DNA of 64,000 bases from Mesorhizobium sp. B1-1-8 (lineage in GTDB: Bacteria > Pseudomonadota > Alphaproteobacteria > Rhizobiales > Rhizobiaceae), in assembly GCF_006442795.2 (NCBI RefSeq), contig NZ_CP083957.1, positions 186,001 to 250,000 of the forward strand, in the 5' to 3' direction. A model generated the notes under the pieces. That model made no database searches, was not told the DNA's origin, and worked only from the letters and a program-made list of their open reading frames with translations. How positions within the stretch are numbered: position 1 is the first letter of the stretch; each line of letters opens with the position of its first letter. This document shows, piece by piece, positions 2,955-51,210 of this stretch. A program made the translations under genes and the position numbers.

Positions 2955-4006
2955 TACTTTTTTGTCCCCGGCCGGTTCGCCTGGGCTTGGTTCAGGCGCG
3001 CAAAATAGATTTCCGACACGCCGCGCCGGCCGCCGTCGCGCCTGAGCTGGACGACTATGGGGATCACGCTGCGGATATAGGAGACCAGATCAGCCTTCGG
3101 GTATGCAGCCGACAGGCCAGACTGCATCACCATCATGGCAAGCTGTTCATAGGCGCCGGCCGGCGTGTCGGCATGGACCGTGGACATCGACCCTGGATGT
3201 CCGGTGTTGATGGCGCGCAGGAACGAGAAGGCTTCAACGCCCCGCACCTCGCCGACGAAAAGCCGGTCCGGGCGCATGCGCAGCGAGGCCTCGATCAGAT
3301 CCTGGATCGTTACATTGGCCGTTCCCTGGTCGCCCTTGGAGGCAAGCAGATGGACCGCGTTGGGCTGCGGCGGAAACAGCTCGCGCGTGTCTTCCAGCGT
3401 GATGATCCGCTCCTTGCTGCTCACCGCTTTCAGGCAGGCGTTCAGGAATGTCGTCTTGCCGCTTGAAGTGCCGCCGCTGATCAGCATGGAAACGCGGTTG
3501 GCGATCGCCGCGCGGACAAAGCCATAGACATCTCCATGGGTCAGGCGCTCGATCAGCGACCGGTCCGTGTCGCTCAGGCCGTCGACATCCACGGACACGC
3601 GATCGAAGGCGCCGCTGTCGCGATAATCCTCCAGCGTGAACTCGCCGACCACCTGTTTGCGGATCGATACCGCGCCGCCGGCCGGGGCAGCCGGGGGCAG
3701 CACGAACTGAATGCGCTCGCCGGACGGAAGCGCGGCGCTCAGGATCGGGTTGGCGGGGCTGATGAACTGGTTGGTGGCCGCCGCGACGCGCTCGCCCATA
3801 TTGGCGATCTCGGTAGCGCTGAGCCTCGGGATTTCGTGAAACTCCATATGAGCCGCGCCGAGCCGCTCGACATAGACGTGGCCGGGCTTGTTGATCGAGA
3901 TCTCCACCACCCGGGGATCGACCAGAAAAGACTTCAACGGTTCTAGCGACCGGTAAAGAAAGTAGTGCTGGTCGCGGTCGGCGGCTTCAGTTGAGACCAC
4001 GCGCAT
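2954..4006 (-). CDS. virB11: VirB11 secretion ATPase
   Basis: Hexameric cytoplasmic traffic ATPase that powers pilus assembly and substrate transfer. The 350-aa protein has the N-terminal domain, then Walker A GGTSSGKTT (178-186), an Asp box (ITLEDTREL), Walker B (DRLFVGEVRG) and a His box (NTGHPGSMSTVHAD), all in family order. It overlaps virB10 by 20 bases at its start and virD4 by one base at its end, so translation is coupled. All expected catalytic motifs are intact. Confidence 0.96.
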   Translation of the reverse strand: MRVVSTEAADRDQHYFLYRSLEPLKSFLVDPRVVEISINKPGHVYVERLGAAHMEFHEIPRLSATEIANMGERVAAATNQFISPANPILSAALPSGERIQFVLPPAAPAGGAVSIRKQVVGEFTLEDYRDSGAFDRVSVDVDGLSDTDRSLIERLTHGDVYGFVRAAIANRVSMLISGGTSSGKTTFLNACLKAVSSKERIITLEDTRELFPPQPNAVHLLASKGDQGTANVTIQDLIEASLRMRPDRLFVGEVRGVEAFSFLRAINTGHPGSMSTVHADTPAGAYEQLAMMVMQSGLSAAYPKADLVSYIRSVIPIVVQLRRDGGRRGVSEIYFARLNQAQANRPGTKK

Positions 4007-5213
4007 GACGGATTTCCTTGTAGGCCTCTGTCACGGGATCGTCGTAAAGGGCCGAAAAATCGAGGTCCTGGCGCACGAACACAAAGATCCGCTCGCCTTG
4101 CGGCACGCTGATTGTCGGCGGGATTTTGAGGCTGTCGGCAAGCGCCTGGTTGGCCATGTCCGAGAAGGTCTGGGCGATCGTCGTGCGCGCGAGGTCTTCG
4201 GCGCGCTGTGCCTCGTCGCCCTTGCCGGACGCTGCCTGACTGCCATAGCCGGTGAGATAGTTTGAGGCGCCGCCGACTACCGACAGCAGCATCGCCGCGC
4301 CGAAGCGTTCCCGGAACTTGTTGTCGACGCGCCCGGTCAGGCCGGAGCGGCCGAGGCTGTCGGCGCCGATCGAGTTCAGCCGCACGCTCACGCCGTCATT
4401 CCGAAGCAGGCGGGTCCAGATGACGAAAATCCGTTTCTGGCCGCGGGTGATCTCCGACTGGTATTCGCCGATCAGCCGCGAGCCCGTCGCGATGAGAATG
4501 CGACGGCCATCGAAGGAATAGACATCCTGAGAGACGATCGCCCGGATCTGGCCTGGCAGATCGCTGACGATCGCCGTCTCCAGGATCCCGGGGATGAGGG
4601 TGCCTTCGGGAACCAGAGCGTCGATGCGCTGGATTTTCCTCGCGCTTGCCGAGCGATCGCCGATCCCTGCGGCGGCGGCAAGAAACTTGCTGTTGCGATC
4701 CTCGCCCGCGACGGTCCGTCCGTCAGCATCGCGGGAAGCCTCGCCGTTCTCATCGCCTGCGGTCGCCTGGTTGTCATAGACGATCATCTTGGAGCGCAAA
4801 CGCGCCGGAAATTCCTCCACCGGTTCCACCGGTCCAGCATGCTCGGCGGTGGACGCGGGCGGCGGCGGCACGTTGAAGGCCGTCGTGTCGCTCTCATTCT
4901 GCACCGCCGGCGCCGGCGGCGGAGGCGGAGGTGGCGGCAGCTCGATCACCTCCGGTGCCGGCGGCTTCGGCGCCGGCTCGCGCTCGCGCATGAATGAAGG
5001 CGGGCGGAAGCTCGTCGTGGAGAATTCCTCGTCGCCTTCAAGCATGTCGTGCGGCGGCGGCTGACGCCCGGCAAGCACGAAATACCCCGCCGCCAGCCCC
5101 AAAAGGACCAGCACCGCGCCGCCGGCTAGCTGCTTGCGACGCACCGAAGGATCGGCAACCGCCGCATCGCCGCTGCTGGCCAGAACCTCGAGTTCGGGGC
5201 TTCGCTGCGTCAA
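3987..5213 (-). CDS. virB10: VirB10 TonB-like channel protein
   Basis: Spans inner membrane, periplasm and outer-membrane core complex, linking ATPase energy to the channel. One membrane segment lies near residues 28-47. A Pro-rich linker (ELPPPPPPPPAP) follows, then the conserved C-terminal beta-barrel domain with GTLIPGILETAI. The start is taken as TTG at 5213: it sits 6 bases after AAGGAG and overlaps the virB9 stop as TTGA, giving 408 aa. The upstream ATG at 5321 would lie far inside virB9 and adds only Arg-rich residues. Confidence 0.94.
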   Translation of the reverse strand: MTQRSPELEVLASSGDAAVADPSVRRKQLAGGAVLVLLGLAAGYFVLAGRQPPPHDMLEGDEEFSTTSFRPPSFMREREPAPKPPAPEVIELPPPPPPPPAPAVQNESDTTAFNVPPPPASTAEHAGPVEPVEEFPARLRSKMIVYDNQATAGDENGEASRDADGRTVAGEDRNSKFLAAAAGIGDRSASARKIQRIDALVPEGTLIPGILETAIVSDLPGQIRAIVSQDVYSFDGRRILIATGSRLIGEYQSEITRGQKRIFVIWTRLLRNDGVSVRLNSIGADSLGRSGLTGRVDNKFRERFGAAMLLSVVGGASNYLTGYGSQAASGKGDEAQRAEDLARTTIAQTFSDMANQALADSLKIPPTISVPQGERIFVFVRQDLDFSALYDDPVTEAYKEIRHARGLN

Positions 5214-44679: not shown

Positions 44680-45162
44680 GAAAAGGCTCGCGAGCGCAGG
44701 TCATCGCCGTGATAACCTCATCGAGCGATGCGATGTCCTTTACCGCCGCCATTTCTACCGGATCGTGGGTTTGGGCGAGCGTTCGCATTTCGGGAATATC
44801 ATCCGGGCCGATCGGCGCGTAGCTCGCCACCAGCAAGTCTCGATATTCGTGTAAGGAAACCCAAGGCCTGGATCGATAGTTTTTTTAATCCATCGACCCA
44901 CCTTGTCATAGCGATGCGCCCTGTGCCGCGTTCAGCTAATAAATTCTCCTCACGAAAATCCTGCAATGATGCATGCCGCAGGTCGTCCACGCCTCGTACA
45001 TGCTTTCTGACACCACTCGGCATGGCTTGGAGCTCCGTCGTCGGCCGTCATACATTTGCCAACCGCACGTCGAAGGCCTATGCTGTTTCAATCGGCCGCC
45101 AGTGTTTTCGGATGCCGCCGACAGTGAGAGATACGCGCTCTTGCCCGTCAGGGAGGAGAGCC
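44680..45162. other. Intergenic upstream of the Crp/Fnr gene
   Basis: About 480 bases; no gene or strong hairpin recognised. Open frames here are the extension of the regulator's frame and lack family similarity. Confidence 0.45.
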
Positions 45163-46688: not shown

Positions 46689-47579
46689 TCAGTCTGAGAC
46701 AATTTCGTAGTGAAGAACCTGCGCGTCGCTGAGGGACAACCTTAATCCAGGCGAGATCACGCCGGAGCCGAAGAGGAGAATATCTTCGCGGCGTATGAAT
46801 ACTTCATGACCAGGTCCCATCGACAGATATGTGCCCGACGAGCTTCGCTCGACAAGCCGGGCCCTGCCATTCGAAATGGTGAAGGTCGCGTGGTGCCTTG
46901 AAACCCAAGGCCGCGCGACGACAATATTGCATTCAGGAGATCGGCCAATGGTCACCATTTCGTTGTTTCGACAGGATCGCAACTGATCTCCGTAGCGGAT
47001 GAACAGATTGATCTGCCGCGGCGGGCCGGAGCGCTTACCAGTAATGGTGCCCCGGCTTGTGATCTGAGTACTGAGGGCCCCATTGTCGCTCCACAGCGTA
47101 TAGACATCGAAGACTTGGTGCTTCCCCTTGAAGTCCATTTTGTCGAGGAGCCGCAAGCCGCTGCGGCTGCCGGCGGAAAGGGCTTCGTAGAAGCTTTGGC
47201 TGATCAGCACCTCCCCAGGGTTGGCCGTAGTGGATAACCTTGCGGTGACATTGACAACGTCGCCGAAGACCTCGCCCCGTGCGCGAATGACCCCCCCGAA
47301 ATGCAATCCTATACGGGCGCTCAACGGCCCTTCCGTCAGTTGGCGGCTGATTTGGCAGACGGCCCTCAGCGCCGCCTCCGGGTTCTCGAACAGACTGAGT
47401 ACGTCATCGCCTTTCGAGTGAATGAAATCACCGCCGTGCCGGGCGACGATCTCGCGCATCGCGTCCAGGCAATCCGAGACCTGCTGCAGAGCGGCATCGT
47501 CGCCGATGTGCTCATAGAGGGGCGTGCTGCCCACGACATCAGCTAAAAGGACCGCGGCTAGGAGTCTTTCCTGATCCAT
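46689..47579 (-). CDS. Class III adenylate/guanylate cyclase with FHA domain
   Basis: 296 aa. Residues 1-180 are a class III cyclase: LLADVVGSTPLYEHIG and GGDFIHSKGDDVLSLFEN provide the two metal Asp sites, and GDVVNVTARLSTTANPGE follows. Residues ~205-290 are a forkhead-associated domain (VTIGRSPECNIVV, WVSRHHATFTISNG, SSGTYLS), which binds phosphothreonine. The fusion implies nucleotide synthesis gated by a Ser/Thr kinase signal. Cytosolic, single gene. Confidence 0.93.
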   Translation of the reverse strand: MDQERLLAAVLLADVVGSTPLYEHIGDDAALQQVSDCLDAMREIVARHGGDFIHSKGDDVLSLFENPEAALRAVCQISRQLTEGPLSARIGLHFGGVIRARGEVFGDVVNVTARLSTTANPGEVLISQSFYEALSAGSRSGLRLLDKMDFKGKHQVFDVYTLWSDNGALSTQITSRGTITGKRSGPPRQINLFIRYGDQLRSCRNNEMVTIGRSPECNIVVARPWVSRHHATFTISNGRARLVERSSSGTYLSMGPGHEVFIRREDILLFGSGVISPGLRLSLSDAQVLHYEIVSD

Positions 47580-48030
47580 CGATCTCGTATCCGCCCCGAG
47601 AGCGCAGCGTGTATATCACACAAGGACGCCGATAATCTATTTGATCACGCGGCCGGGGGTGGAGGCGCTGCTTCGGTGTAATCGTCTTCGACAGACACGC
47701 GTCTGCCTTCACTCATATCGCCAAATGACCCGCTTCTCCCATCGGATCTGAACCAGGCGCCGGAAACGGATGGTGTGCGCCTGTTACCGATGGGTGGAAT
47801 AGCTCGGCATCCATCCATTCGCGACCGCCGAACTTTTGGCGCCCGCACCGGATGCCCGCCACCTGCCCGGTGTCATGGGCATGCGTCAGGGTCTAGCGGC
47901 ACCTCGCGCCCACTTTTCCGGTTGATCAGGCATTCCTCAAAATGAGGATTATTCCTGTCTGGTCAAGAGGGCCTTGACTCCAGGTTCTCATTTTGTTCAC
48001 TATTTGCAGGACAGCCACAGGAGGCCGGTC
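47580..48030. other. Intergenic; promoter of the SRAP operon at its right end
   Basis: A 67-codon reverse frame (47645-47848) is weak. The right 100 bases hold CCTCA-AAA-TGAGG at 47935-47947 and the LexA box. Confidence 0.45.
47974..48003 (+). promoter_or_regulatory. Promoter with embedded alphaproteobacterial LexA (SOS) box
   Basis: TTGACT (-35, 47974-47979) and CACTAT (-10-like, 47998-48003) with GTTC-TCATTTT-GTTC (47984-47998) between them. GTTC-N7-GTTC is the established alphaproteobacterial LexA site. Binding would block RNA polymerase. The first ATG follows at 48031 with AGGAGG before it. Confidence 0.75.
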
Positions 48031-48621
48031 ATGGACATGTTTATGGATGCCAGGGGCGCCACCCCTGAGGAAAAGCAGCGCGGGCTTGAGGCGGCAAGGG
48101 CGGTGCTCGATCGGGCTGGAATCGCGGCCGAAGAAGCCGCCGACGGTGCTTTTGCAGTTGAGGGCTGGGACGATATGGGCTTCCCGCCGGACCAAGAGCC
48201 GACCGAAGCCGTGTACGTGGCTGCCGAAGCCTGGTGGGCAGCAAGCAACGCAGCAAAGGAAGCCTGTTGCGCGGGCTGGTCGGACGAGAAGAGATATCAC
48301 GTCGGTGGCCTGCAATTGCTGCACGATCCTGAGACGGAGCTAGCAGATCGCGCCACGGCGCTGGCGCGAATGCGCGCCATTATTGAGGAGGAAGACGGCC
48401 GAAATGAATACCATGAGGATCGCATCTTCCTGCTGGCGCTTGCCGCCACGGCCGAAATGGCTGACAGCATCAAGGCGCGAGAACTCGTCAGCGCGGTGAC
48501 TTGTGCATACACACCTCTGGCGCACGCCGGTTTCACGCCAGACGAACCTATTGAGCCCAAGCGTCGGGCCGTGTTTGATGCGATCGATGCGCTGGAGCGA
48601 GGATCGGCGCCACTCAACTGA
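48031..48621 (+). CDS. Hypothetical protein upstream of SRAP
   Basis: 196 aa, ATG 48031 (MDMFMDARGATPEEKQRGLE). Ala/Glu-rich, mostly helical, with conserved-looking Trp (EGWDDMGFPPDQEP, AEAWWAASNAAKEACCAGWS). No domain recognised. It is the first gene behind the LexA box, 8 bases before the SRAP gene, so a DNA-damage role is inferred from context only. Confidence 0.78.
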   Translation: MDMFMDARGATPEEKQRGLEAARAVLDRAGIAAEEAADGAFAVEGWDDMGFPPDQEPTEAVYVAAEAWWAASNAAKEACCAGWSDEKRYHVGGLQLLHDPETELADRATALARMRAIIEEEDGRNEYHEDRIFLLALAATAEMADSIKARELVSAVTCAYTPLAHAGFTPDEPIEPKRRAVFDAIDALERGSAPLN

Positions 48622-48629
48622 GGTCGAGC

Positions 48630-49322
48630 ATGTGCGGTCGCTACACCAGATATCTGTCCTGGTCTGAGATTCACCGGCTCTATCGGTTGACCGCGCCGGC
48701 CGAGATCGGCCGAAACGATGCGCCGCGCTACAACATCGCCCCGACCGAAGAAGTGCCTTTCATCACGGCCGGTGACGACGGCAATCACAAGCTCCGCAAC
48801 GGTCGATGGTGGCTCGTTCCATTCTGGGCGAAGGAAATGCCCAAGGCTGCCACCTTCAATGCGCGCATCGAGACGGTGGACACCATGCCGGCCTTTCGGG
48901 ACGCCTTCAAATCGAAACGTTGCCTGATCCCCGCCGACGGCTATTACGAGTGGACGATCTCACCGGCTGACAAAGGTCGAGACCCTTGGCACATCTTCCA
49001 GCCCGGCCATGCGCCGTTCTCGTTCGCTGGTCTATGGGCCTACAATTCGAACCTTGATGTCACCAGCTGCACCATCATCACCGAACCCTCTGCAGCGCCC
49101 GTGAACCACATCCACGATCGGCAGCCGCTCATCCTCGATCCGACCTATTATGACGCTTGGCTCGACCCCAAGACGCCTGTCGGCGACCTCAGGGATATTC
49201 TCAGCCATGACATCGATGATCAGCTGCAGTTCTATCGCGTCGGCCGAGAGGTCAACGCCAGCGTGAAAGACAAGCAGCCCAACGACTACGCCGGGCTGAT
49301 CGAGCCGATCAAGCTGCTATGA
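48630..49322 (+). CDS. SOS response-associated peptidase (SRAP, YedK/HMCES type)
   Basis: 230 aa. Binds abasic sites in single-stranded DNA through Cys2 and shields them as a thiazolidine crosslink. Motifs: MCGRYT start (Cys2), FNARIET (Asn and Glu region), GYYEWT (Glu) and HDRQPLIL (His). All catalytic positions are intact. Preceded by a 196-aa gene and followed by three small overlapping genes; the LexA box upstream agrees with SOS control. Confidence 0.95.
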   Translation: MCGRYTRYLSWSEIHRLYRLTAPAEIGRNDAPRYNIAPTEEVPFITAGDDGNHKLRNGRWWLVPFWAKEMPKAATFNARIETVDTMPAFRDAFKSKRCLIPADGYYEWTISPADKGRDPWHIFQPGHAPFSFAGLWAYNSNLDVTSCTIITEPSAAPVNHIHDRQPLILDPTYYDAWLDPKTPVGDLRDILSHDIDDQLQFYRVGREVNASVKDKQPNDYAGLIEPIKLL

Positions 49323-49492
49323 GCGACGAGCTTGTGAAAGGCGCGCCACCGGCGCCCCAGCGTGTGGTCGAAAACCACGTTTGTGAGCATGCCGGATGCT
49401 GCAAGGATGCGGCGTTTGGTTTTGCCATGCCGCGACGACCCGCCCACTGGTTCTGTCTGGAGCACCGCGGCGAGGGAGAGCAGTTTCTATGA
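49319..49492 (+). CDS. Small Cys/His protein, 57 aa
   Basis: Starts at an ATGA overlap with the SRAP stop and ends at another ATGA overlap with the next gene. Contains VCEHAGCCKDAAFGF and HWFCLEHRGEGEQF, giving C-x4-CC...C-x2-H spacing, a possible zinc site. The tight coupling on both sides supports a real gene. Confidence 0.75.
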   Translation: MSDELVKGAPPAPQRVVENHVCEHAGCCKDAAFGFAMPRRPAHWFCLEHRGEGEQFL

Positions 49493-49734
49493 TCAGCCCG
49501 CCGAAGCATTCTGAAGCCTACGCGGACCGCGAGCTCGATTGCCAGGAGGCGATGGAGCCTGGCTTTCAGGCGATCGTCGATTGCATGCTCGAGGCTGGTT
49601 GGACGCGCGGCGAGATCATTCGTTCGCTGCGCCGGCTGATCGCGGCCGACAACATGACGCAGAAGGAAAACGCCAAGGTCGAGGCGGAGCTTGCGATTGT
49701 TCGGGCGATGGTGCGGGCGGGTCGGTTGTTTTAA
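49489..49734 (+). CDS. Small hypothetical protein of the SRAP operon
   Basis: 81 aa from ATG 49489, overlapping its neighbours. Helical, acidic (EAYADRELDCQEAMEPGFQA, CMLEAGWTRGEIIRSLRRL). Common helix pattern in short rhizobial proteins; no known domain. Confidence 0.72.
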   Translation: MISPPKHSEAYADRELDCQEAMEPGFQAIVDCMLEAGWTRGEIIRSLRRLIAADNMTQKENAKVEAELAIVRAMVRAGRLF

Positions 49735-49967
49735 TGGAAAGGCTTCAGAGGAAACGGGGCAACGGTCGGGTTATGGGGAAAGATTTCACTTCGCAACTGG
49801 TCATCACAACTATTCGAAAGCAAATCAGCGCGAGCTGGGCGGAGTTGGACCGCATAAATGACCGGATTCAACAGACGCACCTAGCTATTGAACGGTCCCG
49901 CATCTTGCTCGAAAGGCAGCGGGACCGCGCCGTTGACAACCTCCAACTCCCGCGAGCGTCCAAATAG
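49734..49967 (+). CDS. Coiled-coil hypothetical protein of the SRAP operon
   Basis: 77 aa from ATG 49734, sharing one base with the preceding stop. Basic N-terminus then heptad-like helix (ELDRINDRIQQTHLAIERSR, ILLERQRDRAV). ATG 49773 is an alternative start. No function recognised. Confidence 0.55.
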   Translation: MERLQRKRGNGRVMGKDFTSQLVITTIRKQISASWAELDRINDRIQQTHLAIERSRILLERQRDRAVDNLQLPRASK

Positions 49968-50365: not shown

Positions 50366-51210
50366 GAAAAGCCCGCCACCGTGAGGCAGCGGGCAAAAGA
50401 GGTGGTCTCTCCATGCTCGGCTTGGCGGGCCAAGCACAGGCATCTTGCACAGCAGCCGGGGTCCGGGCATCAACATTTGTTAACCAGCGGCGCGAGTGCT
50501 CCACTACCGTAGTGCCAACGGCTTACGTGATCGCACCATGTCGGAAACCATATGCATTAGCTATTTTGAATATGCGGCGGACTTCGGTTCGTCGGGCCGG
50601 CGTCGGAGGCAACCTCAGGCAGCAGGCGCCGGTCACTTACTTTGCCAAAAATCCTGTTTGCTCTCTCAAATCGTGATGCGGTGACCTCATTCAAACTGGG
50701 GATGTGCTCTGACGTGCATTAGAGAATACTAATGCTACCCGGTGGCTCACAACGCCGGTGCAGCCCGGTATGCGTCCACCGCCAACACACCCCGTTTGAC
50801 GGTTGGTTACCGGGCTGCTCCGTCTCGTTTCAGTCCTCTTCCCGGAAATCCCACAGCGAGGCGTGGCGAAGCATCTCCTCGCCCTTCAGGAACTTCACCC
50901 GACCGACGAGGGCCAGGCTTCAGCCATTCGGCCTTTTCCTTGCCAGGCCCTTCGGCGGCGGCGGCGCGCCCTGCGGCCAGCAGCGATAAGCGCGATCTGC
51001 GGTAAGTCATCTGGCACGAGCAGCCGGGGCACGAGCCGACAGACATTGATAGCTAAAGAAAAACCCGCCGACCGAAGCCAGCGGGCCATCTCCCTCATAC
51101 CTGCGCCCCTAGTCCCCAGACGGTCCGCCGAGTCCAGGAACCCCCTACGCAACCGCGTTTGTAGAACTAAACCCGGATGCTGCGCTGTAGTTCTGCGGCA
51201 ACACTTGCCT
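50366..51210. other. Long gene-poor stretch
   Basis: Holds a GCCCGC/GCGGGC hairpin at 50374-50395 and dispersed repeat copy B (50556-50605). No protein-like frame on either strand. Confidence 0.5.
50556..50605 (+). repeat. Dispersed repeat, copy B
   Basis: TTAGCTATTTTG, one base, ATATGCGGCGGAC, then TTCGGTTCGTCGGG and CCGGCG. Same core as copies at 44339 and 63601. Confidence 0.5.

Follow-up and report, generated by a model that had tools for sequence, protein, structure and literature searches.

A probably LexA-controlled SRAP cassette of mosaic make-up on a Mesorhizobium replicon

Results

The window, by which we mean the whole 64,000-nucleotide stretch of Mesorhizobium sp. B1-1-8 DNA that was analysed, belongs to a 494,404-base replicon (G000:C2); Mesorhizobium accounts for most of its close relatives, at the protein as well as the DNA level. 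Consecutive frames on the forward strand make up the cassette studied here. A leader protein of 196 aa (48031..48621, +), from an uncharacterised family centred on Mesorhizobium, is followed by a SRAP protein of the accessory class (48630..49322, +), a 57-aa Cys/His protein (49319..49492, +), an 81-aa protein (49489..49734, +) and a 77-aa ORF (49734..49967, +). A first-pass annotation, made from the letters alone, had named the SRAP gene and described overlapping stops and starts, and both statements were confirmed: SRAP family PF02586 was matched far above its cut-off (E 3.8e-59; 200 bits against 27.1), the leader stop ends at 48621 with the SRAP ATG at 48630 after an 8-base gap, and the later genes are joined by ATGA overlaps at 49319 and 49489 and by TAATG at 49732-49736. 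The 57-aa protein shows a weak EsV-1-7 Cys motif (PF19114, E 4.6e-4, below cut-off) and matches phrog_29777 (E 6.6e-13); a word-based protein search gave no hits for it, with too few words in common. SRAP occurs in 62 phage records, at less than 60% identity, and the 57-aa protein in 4. The 81-aa family comprises 331 matches including the protein itself, and all named ones among the 120 listed are Mesorhizobium; a CII-like match of this protein was weak and below cut-off (E 0.0065), and a phage CII-like identity was not relied on.

On the reverse strand upstream of the cassette, tblastn with an intact 105-aa Zn-ribbon-like gene (L039:2475-2789) aligned to 47712..47933 (-), with 35% identity over 105 gapped alignment columns within 222 bases (E 8e-10). 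The window's ORF list holds no intact frame of this gene's size at 47712..47933, and the divergent gene is, as read from the sequence, decayed. The upstream neighbour at 46689-47579 (-) joins an adenylate/guanylate cyclase domain to an FHA domain. Downstream, a ligD-type ATP-dependent DNA ligase gene has left a scrap of its 3' end at 50833..50985 (-) (tblastn, 61% identity across 51 residues, E 2e-12); another small piece resembling ligase was seen at 44943-45005 (-) (E 0.003). Ku was not found in the window by tblastn, and ligase is represented there only by the 51-residue scrap. The published SRAP-Ku-ligase neighbourhood, with intact Ku and ligase beside SRAP, is thus absent from the window; an intact ligase adjoins the paralogous cassette in L020, and both Ku and ligase lie near SRAP in the relatives L127 and L145.

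For gene content, 34 leader loci and 40 SRAP loci were searched by tblastn. As flanks were short, counts of SRAP neighbours are lower bounds: the 57-aa Cys/His gene is present in at least 29 of the 40 SRAP stretches (directly after SRAP on the same strand in 25), ligase in 18, the 81-aa gene in 15, the leader in 13 (14 with a longer relative as query), the 105-aa Zn-ribbon-like gene in 13, a 126-aa gene in 12, an 86-aa gene in 11 and Ku in 2. The 77-aa ORF was found by tblastn in none of the relatives' loci (0/40 SRAP and 0/34 leader loci); on this count of 0/74 it was rejected as an operon member and is probably not a conserved one. SRAP of the window's class (at least 55% identity) is present in 11 of the 34 leader loci, the others having other SRAP types or none, and the gene after the box described below may be the leader, the 126-aa gene or SRAP directly. 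Judged by this gene content, the cassette is a mosaic with one steady SRAP partner, the 57-aa protein, and two optional ones, the leader and the 81-aa protein. The first-pass annotation had proposed a larger damage-response unit in which four small proteins help SRAP. Across the loci surveyed, only the 57-aa gene is a regular neighbour of SRAP; the leader and the 81-aa gene come and go and the 77-aa ORF drops out. In that form, the proposal of a fixed four-helper unit is not supported.

The promoter in front of the leader gene could be read directly. A -35 element TTGACT (47974..47979, +), which also appears in the promoter listing of leader loci, and a -10-like CACTAT (47998..48003, +) are separated by a spacer of 18. 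Between them lies GTTCTCATTTTGTTC, a GTTC-N7-GTTC direct repeat at 47984..47998 (+) and a candidate LexA box, whose last base, 47998, is shared with the -10-like element. This is the arrangement first proposed from the sequence alone; the distance to the first ATG at 48031, then given as 33 bases, is 32. A ribosome-binding AGGAGG follows at 48019..48024 (+). The box thus sits inside the promoter spacer, a position where a repressor would block RNA polymerase. An identical 15-mer occurs at G000:C1:1288359.

Inverted repeats accompany this promoter. GTCAAG-N5-CTTGAC (47962..47978) overlaps the -35 element, has like repeats by eye in many leader promoters and probably consists of two back-to-back -35 elements. 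Further upstream, AGGATTATTCCT (47945..47956) is, by eye in the promoter listings, a degenerate copy of the AGGAACATATTCCT inverted repeat present in most related promoters. A reading of AGGAACATATTCCT as a stress-sigma promoter of the EcfG type was dropped because its spacing, compared by eye, is off the consensus; the repeat is assigned, again by eye, to the promoter that drives the divergent Zn-ribbon gene.

The 34 leader loci had been found by a contig search with a leader protein alignment, in which upstream DNA played no part. Absence of the box before orthologous operons, named in the first-pass annotation as the outcome that would speak against LexA control, was not observed: a forward box is present in 33 of the 34 loci, at 25-34 bases from the start in 30 and at 90-103 bases in 3, against a chance expectation of 0.04 boxes in 34 stretches of 110 b. 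The one locus without it, L079, is a degenerate fragment. The 33 distinct promoters, whose half-sites are identical because sites were chosen by them, share 45% pairwise identity over the 20 bases before the box and 39% over the 17 bases further on; the three bases 3' of the box, mostly ACT and part of the -10, reach 79%. Even where the flanks differ, as in L115, L117 and the MCGRVFVK class, the box lies beside TTGACT, and the box stays with the leader whatever gene comes next. Among leader loci from whole genomes, a set that overlaps the 34 and is not independent of it, 39 of 41 have the box, L180 included; the two without it, L160 and L167, are both fragments.

The bare motif is at chance level. 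The window holds 2 GTTC-N7-GTTC sites against 1.96 expected, with 2 or more in 56 of 100 shuffles, and the genome (6.19 Mb) holds 131, fewer than the 158 sites of the reversed control pattern. For the stricter form GTTC-N6-TGTTC the figures were 39 against 27. Motif count was therefore rejected as evidence for a LexA box, and what goes beyond chance is the position and conservation of the box. Two papers name GTTC-N7-GTTC as the LexA site of alpha-proteobacteria (PMC3323433, PMC6237742). Within this genome, the lexA gene (TIGR00498, E 9e-53) is preceded by its own box, GTTCCAGTTGTGTTC, about 60 b upstream, as in a LexA regulon. The motif also lies 50 b upstream of the longest uvrA frame (translation probably begins some way inside that frame), 102 b upstream of ssb and 78 b upstream of one dinB; in a second dinB it falls right where the longest frame begins. 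These identities and that of lexA were assigned by family models. Several further sites fall inside genes.

The genome has six SRAP loci (eight matched pieces), and five of them have a box. In the window, L019 and L020 cassettes the box lies just before the first gene, with the identical 15-mer in L020. L021 has a single shared intergenic box between two short divergent SRAP-type genes (3554-4708), and in the broken cassette at C2:414467 the box lies about 4 kb upstream of the SRAP gene, beyond an apparent transposase gene. The sixth locus, of the housekeeping class, has no box in its 9-kb stretch. The second cassette on C2 (L039:2843-2857 onward) carries a box and the intact 105-aa Zn-ribbon-like gene, and an apparent transposase, presumably of type IS1595, stands between the box and the broken SRAP.

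SRAP was found in 99 of 99 Mesorhizobium genomes searched, this genome included. For the accessory class we used 40 near-full-length loci outside the top-scoring housekeeping group, taken from the matches listed; the set excludes the genome's own loci, partial matches, matches with stops and one match that lay at the edge of a contig. Several of the 40 coincide with leader loci. A forward box lies within 2.4 kb in 33 of the 40, a count that includes the distant boxes of L114 and L148 (2129 b and 2259 b upstream), which may be chance. At L114 there is, in addition, a reverse box 45 b away; the start of L148 resembles housekeeping SRAP. Seven of the 40 have no forward box. Altogether, the upstream DNA of these loci (94.7 kb) contains 34 forward sites against 1.0 expected, with 3 reverse boxes and 2 and 1 hits of the reversed-pattern controls. 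By subtype, the forward box is present in 26 of 31 MCGR[YF]TRYL.WSEI loci and in 5 of 7 MCGRVFVK loci.

For housekeeping SRAP, none of 30 Mesorhizobium loci has a box within 1.5 kb; 29 of them were scanned together (43.5 kb, 0.46 boxes expected), and the thirtieth is L108. This division by the box is imperfect because a further Mesorhizobium housekeeping SRAP, L198, has the box GTTCGTATATCGTTC 130 b upstream. Nor is the box general: seven plasmid SRAP regions from Rhizobium, Allorhizobium, Sinorhizobium, Agrobacterium and Roseibium, with another SRAP subtype, all have no forward box, and two of them have a reverse box 1.3-1.5 kb upstream. In six of these seven regions (L225-L231), a gene annotated as an I78 family peptidase inhibitor follows SRAP. 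Two Mesorhizobium plasmid regions examined with them (L232, L233) do have the box.

The window's SRAP has C2, N77, E107 and H162, the counterparts of C2, N75, E105 and H160 of YedK; residues were matched by motif, and an alignment to a solved relative pairs the same blocks. These YedK active-site residues are studied in PMC9436759. Based on the conserved residues, the window's SRAP probably shields abasic sites.

The classes also differ at the C-terminus. QxxL[FL] is a beta-clamp binding peptide, and human HMCES has a PCNA-binding tail. Housekeeping SRAPs (L022:3878-4636 (-), L084-L113, L195-L222) carry a beta-clamp-like, putatively clamp-binding QxxL[FL] at the C-terminus. In Mesorhizobium it takes the form QM[ST]LF in 29 of 29 read from the 30 loci, one of them with two residues after it. 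Accessory SRAPs have a QxxLF tail in 0 of 19 readable of the 40 loci, all of the WSEI type, and the window's SRAP ends EPIKLL, without the C-terminal QxxL[FL] peptide of a beta-clamp client. A third SRAP type, which starts MCNLYN (L012:1501 (+), L080:6685-7386 (+)), ends QASLF or QGSLF; the genome's own copy in L020 has a box upstream and a QASLF tail, and the L080 relative has QGSLF. SOS control alone does not imply a tail-less SRAP, since this box-linked type has a tail, and a wider claim that SOS-driven SRAPs are without it was narrowed to the window's class. Across the order, 131 genomes gave a match, and 29 SRAPs were read from the 30 loci that scored best. Of these, 24 (20 of the 25 from outside Mesorhizobium) have Q..[LMIV][FL] in the last 14 residues, with differing linkers in front of it. 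The background is 17 of 652 other ORFs, or 11 of 646 after removal of six SRAP frames with an extended start. Among the matches listed, no publication links SRAP or YedK with beta clamp, sliding clamp or clamp-binding motif. The clamp-like tail of housekeeping SRAPs and its absence from the window's SRAP class are new here.

The leader family has 55 proteins in the collection searched, the window's own included. It was found in 51 of 99 Mesorhizobium genomes, in some by fragments or weak matches, and in 9 of 297 genomes of the order, eight of the nine being Mesorhizobium. For the leader, neither Pfam nor NCBIfam gave a family over cut-off, and PDB gave nothing better than E 0.02. A weak Pfam match to plastid ARM repeat, seen in 12 of 35 members at E values up to 0.5 (8e-5 at best), was not relied on, and a phage origin was rejected on finding no relative in viral contigs. 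The AlphaFold2 model is of high confidence and mainly helical (mean pLDDT 91.6, pTM 0.79). About the first 100 residues are common to the types aligned and the remainder varies.

In 7 of the 34 loci the leader adjoins imuB and dnaE2, called in one example each, imuB from its Y-family polymerase domain and place and dnaE2 from the NCBIfam error-prone polymerase. Two leader relatives beside imuB-dnaE2 (L075:6001-6618 and L077:6001-6618) carry QFELF and QMNLF two residues from the C-terminus; the window's leader has no such clamp-motif-like tail. Downstream of a box in this genome, L036:1227-1613 (-) encodes a 128-aa protein that ends RQLELFTAS, matches no NCBIfam family and by eye resembles the C-terminal part of L075-type leaders. 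The leader family appears to be a new, uncharacterised and SOS-linked one that is sometimes found beside imuB-dnaE2, and a new candidate member of the rhizobial damage response.

Discussion

LexA control of the window's cassette is very likely, because the box is conserved and the motif recurs at lexA, uvrA, ssb and dinB of the same genome. We give a probability of roughly 0.8 to the reading that the unit is a LexA-repressed, damage-inducible SRAP cassette, with LexA binding and induction inferred. LexA would bind the direct repeat in the promoter spacer and block RNA polymerase. Upon damage, self-cleavage of LexA would allow transcription of leader, SRAP, Cys/His protein and 81-aa protein. 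SRAP would then link covalently via Cys2 to abasic sites in single-stranded DNA and shield them. Because its class is without the QxxLF tail, the window's SRAP would not be held at the replication clamp and would act on DNA exposed by damage, with targeting perhaps supplied by the small partners.

That GTTC-N7-GTTC arose here by chance and was kept only by recent common ancestry of the promoters is highly improbable. Many of the promoters are indeed homologous, and neither the window nor the genome has more copies of the motif than chance would give, yet 33 of 34 leader loci carry the box amid neighbouring bases that are only 39-45% identical, promoters with unlike flanks keep it beside TTGACT, and, L198 apart, none of 30 housekeeping SRAP loci has it. 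A different question is which product matters. The cassette might be LexA-controlled with the leader as its main product, an SOS mutasome accessory acting with ImuB and DnaE2, and with SRAP as an interchangeable rider on a mobile SOS promoter. The constancy of box and leader in front of changing genes would fit this, as would the seven imuB-dnaE2-linked leaders, two of them with the clamp-motif-like QFELF or QMNLF near the C-terminus, and the presence of the window's SRAP class in just 11 of 34 leader loci. We nevertheless regard it as unlikely: the imuB-dnaE2-linked leaders are a minority at seven of 34, and the leader of the window, whose gene stops 8 bases short of SRAP, is without a tail of this kind.

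The ligase sequences near SRAP point towards another role, in which SRAP and the Zn proteins would prepare single-stranded ends for Ku and LigD as an end-joining accessory. Within the short flanks covered, 18 of 40 SRAP loci have ligase sequence nearby and 2 of 40 have Ku, the window itself contains a ligase scrap, and SRAP with Ku and Zn-chelating domains is reported in PMC3765255. As the window has only this scrap and no Ku was found, its copy cannot rely on end-joining neighbours in cis, and convergent genes need not function jointly; we consider this role unlikely for the cassette. Compared with these alternatives, a LexA-repressed cassette whose SRAP shields abasic sites remains our preferred reading.

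A broader idea, unlikely in our estimate, is that Mesorhizobium splits abasic-site shielding between a constitutive, clamp-tethered SRAP with the QxxLF tail and a second, untethered class that only the SOS response sets free, the latter with a new leader family from the circle of the ImuB-DnaE2 mutasome. If true, the QxxLF tail would be a bacterial counterpart of a PCNA tether, and the cassette would have a say in the fate of a damaged gap: shielding, joining or error-prone copying. As far as the literature covered goes, the 'SOS response' name of bacterial SRAP rests on gene neighbourhoods. Here, one SRAP class has a LexA box at a fixed place, whereas the housekeeping class is as a rule without the box and has a clamp-like tail. 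When and where bacteria shield abasic sites thereby becomes directly testable with two genes of one organism.

Compared with the YedK-HMCES/SRAP family (PF02586), the window's SRAP is alike in domain, Cys2 start and active-site Asn, Glu and His, and differs as an accessory class with its own LexA-box promoter and without the clamp-like tail of the housekeeping copy. The neighbourhood of SRAP is not new because Aravind et al. 2013 (PMC3765255) already describe SRAP beside imuA-imuB-dnaE2, dinB, lexA, Ku, ATP-dependent ligase and two small Zn-chelating domains; the loci analysed here are alike in imuB-dnaE2-type genes, Ku, ATP-dependent ligase and small Zn-chelating proteins. In the main text of that paper neither Mesorhizobium nor rhizob- occurs, and its available part mentions no such leader family and no LexA box at a fixed place. 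Box form, placement inside the promoter and the motif at lexA, uvrA, ssb and dinB are shared with the alpha-proteobacterial LexA regulon, which the window extends by an accessory cassette, mosaic in make-up and carried by a 494-kb replicon. Remigi et al. 2014 (PMC4151985) showed for a rhizobial plasmid that its imuABC cassette, which is under SOS control, increases mutation once the plasmid has been transferred, and SOS-controlled DNA-damage genes on plasmids are the common trait. Unlike imuABC cassettes, the window's copy has no polymerase gene and its SRAP would shield rather than mutate; by analogy, it is plausibly a protective counterpart of imuABC on similar replicons. In conclusion, the cassette is of a known general kind, and what is new is the leader family, the mosaic make-up and the division of SRAP classes, with exceptions, by promoter and tail.
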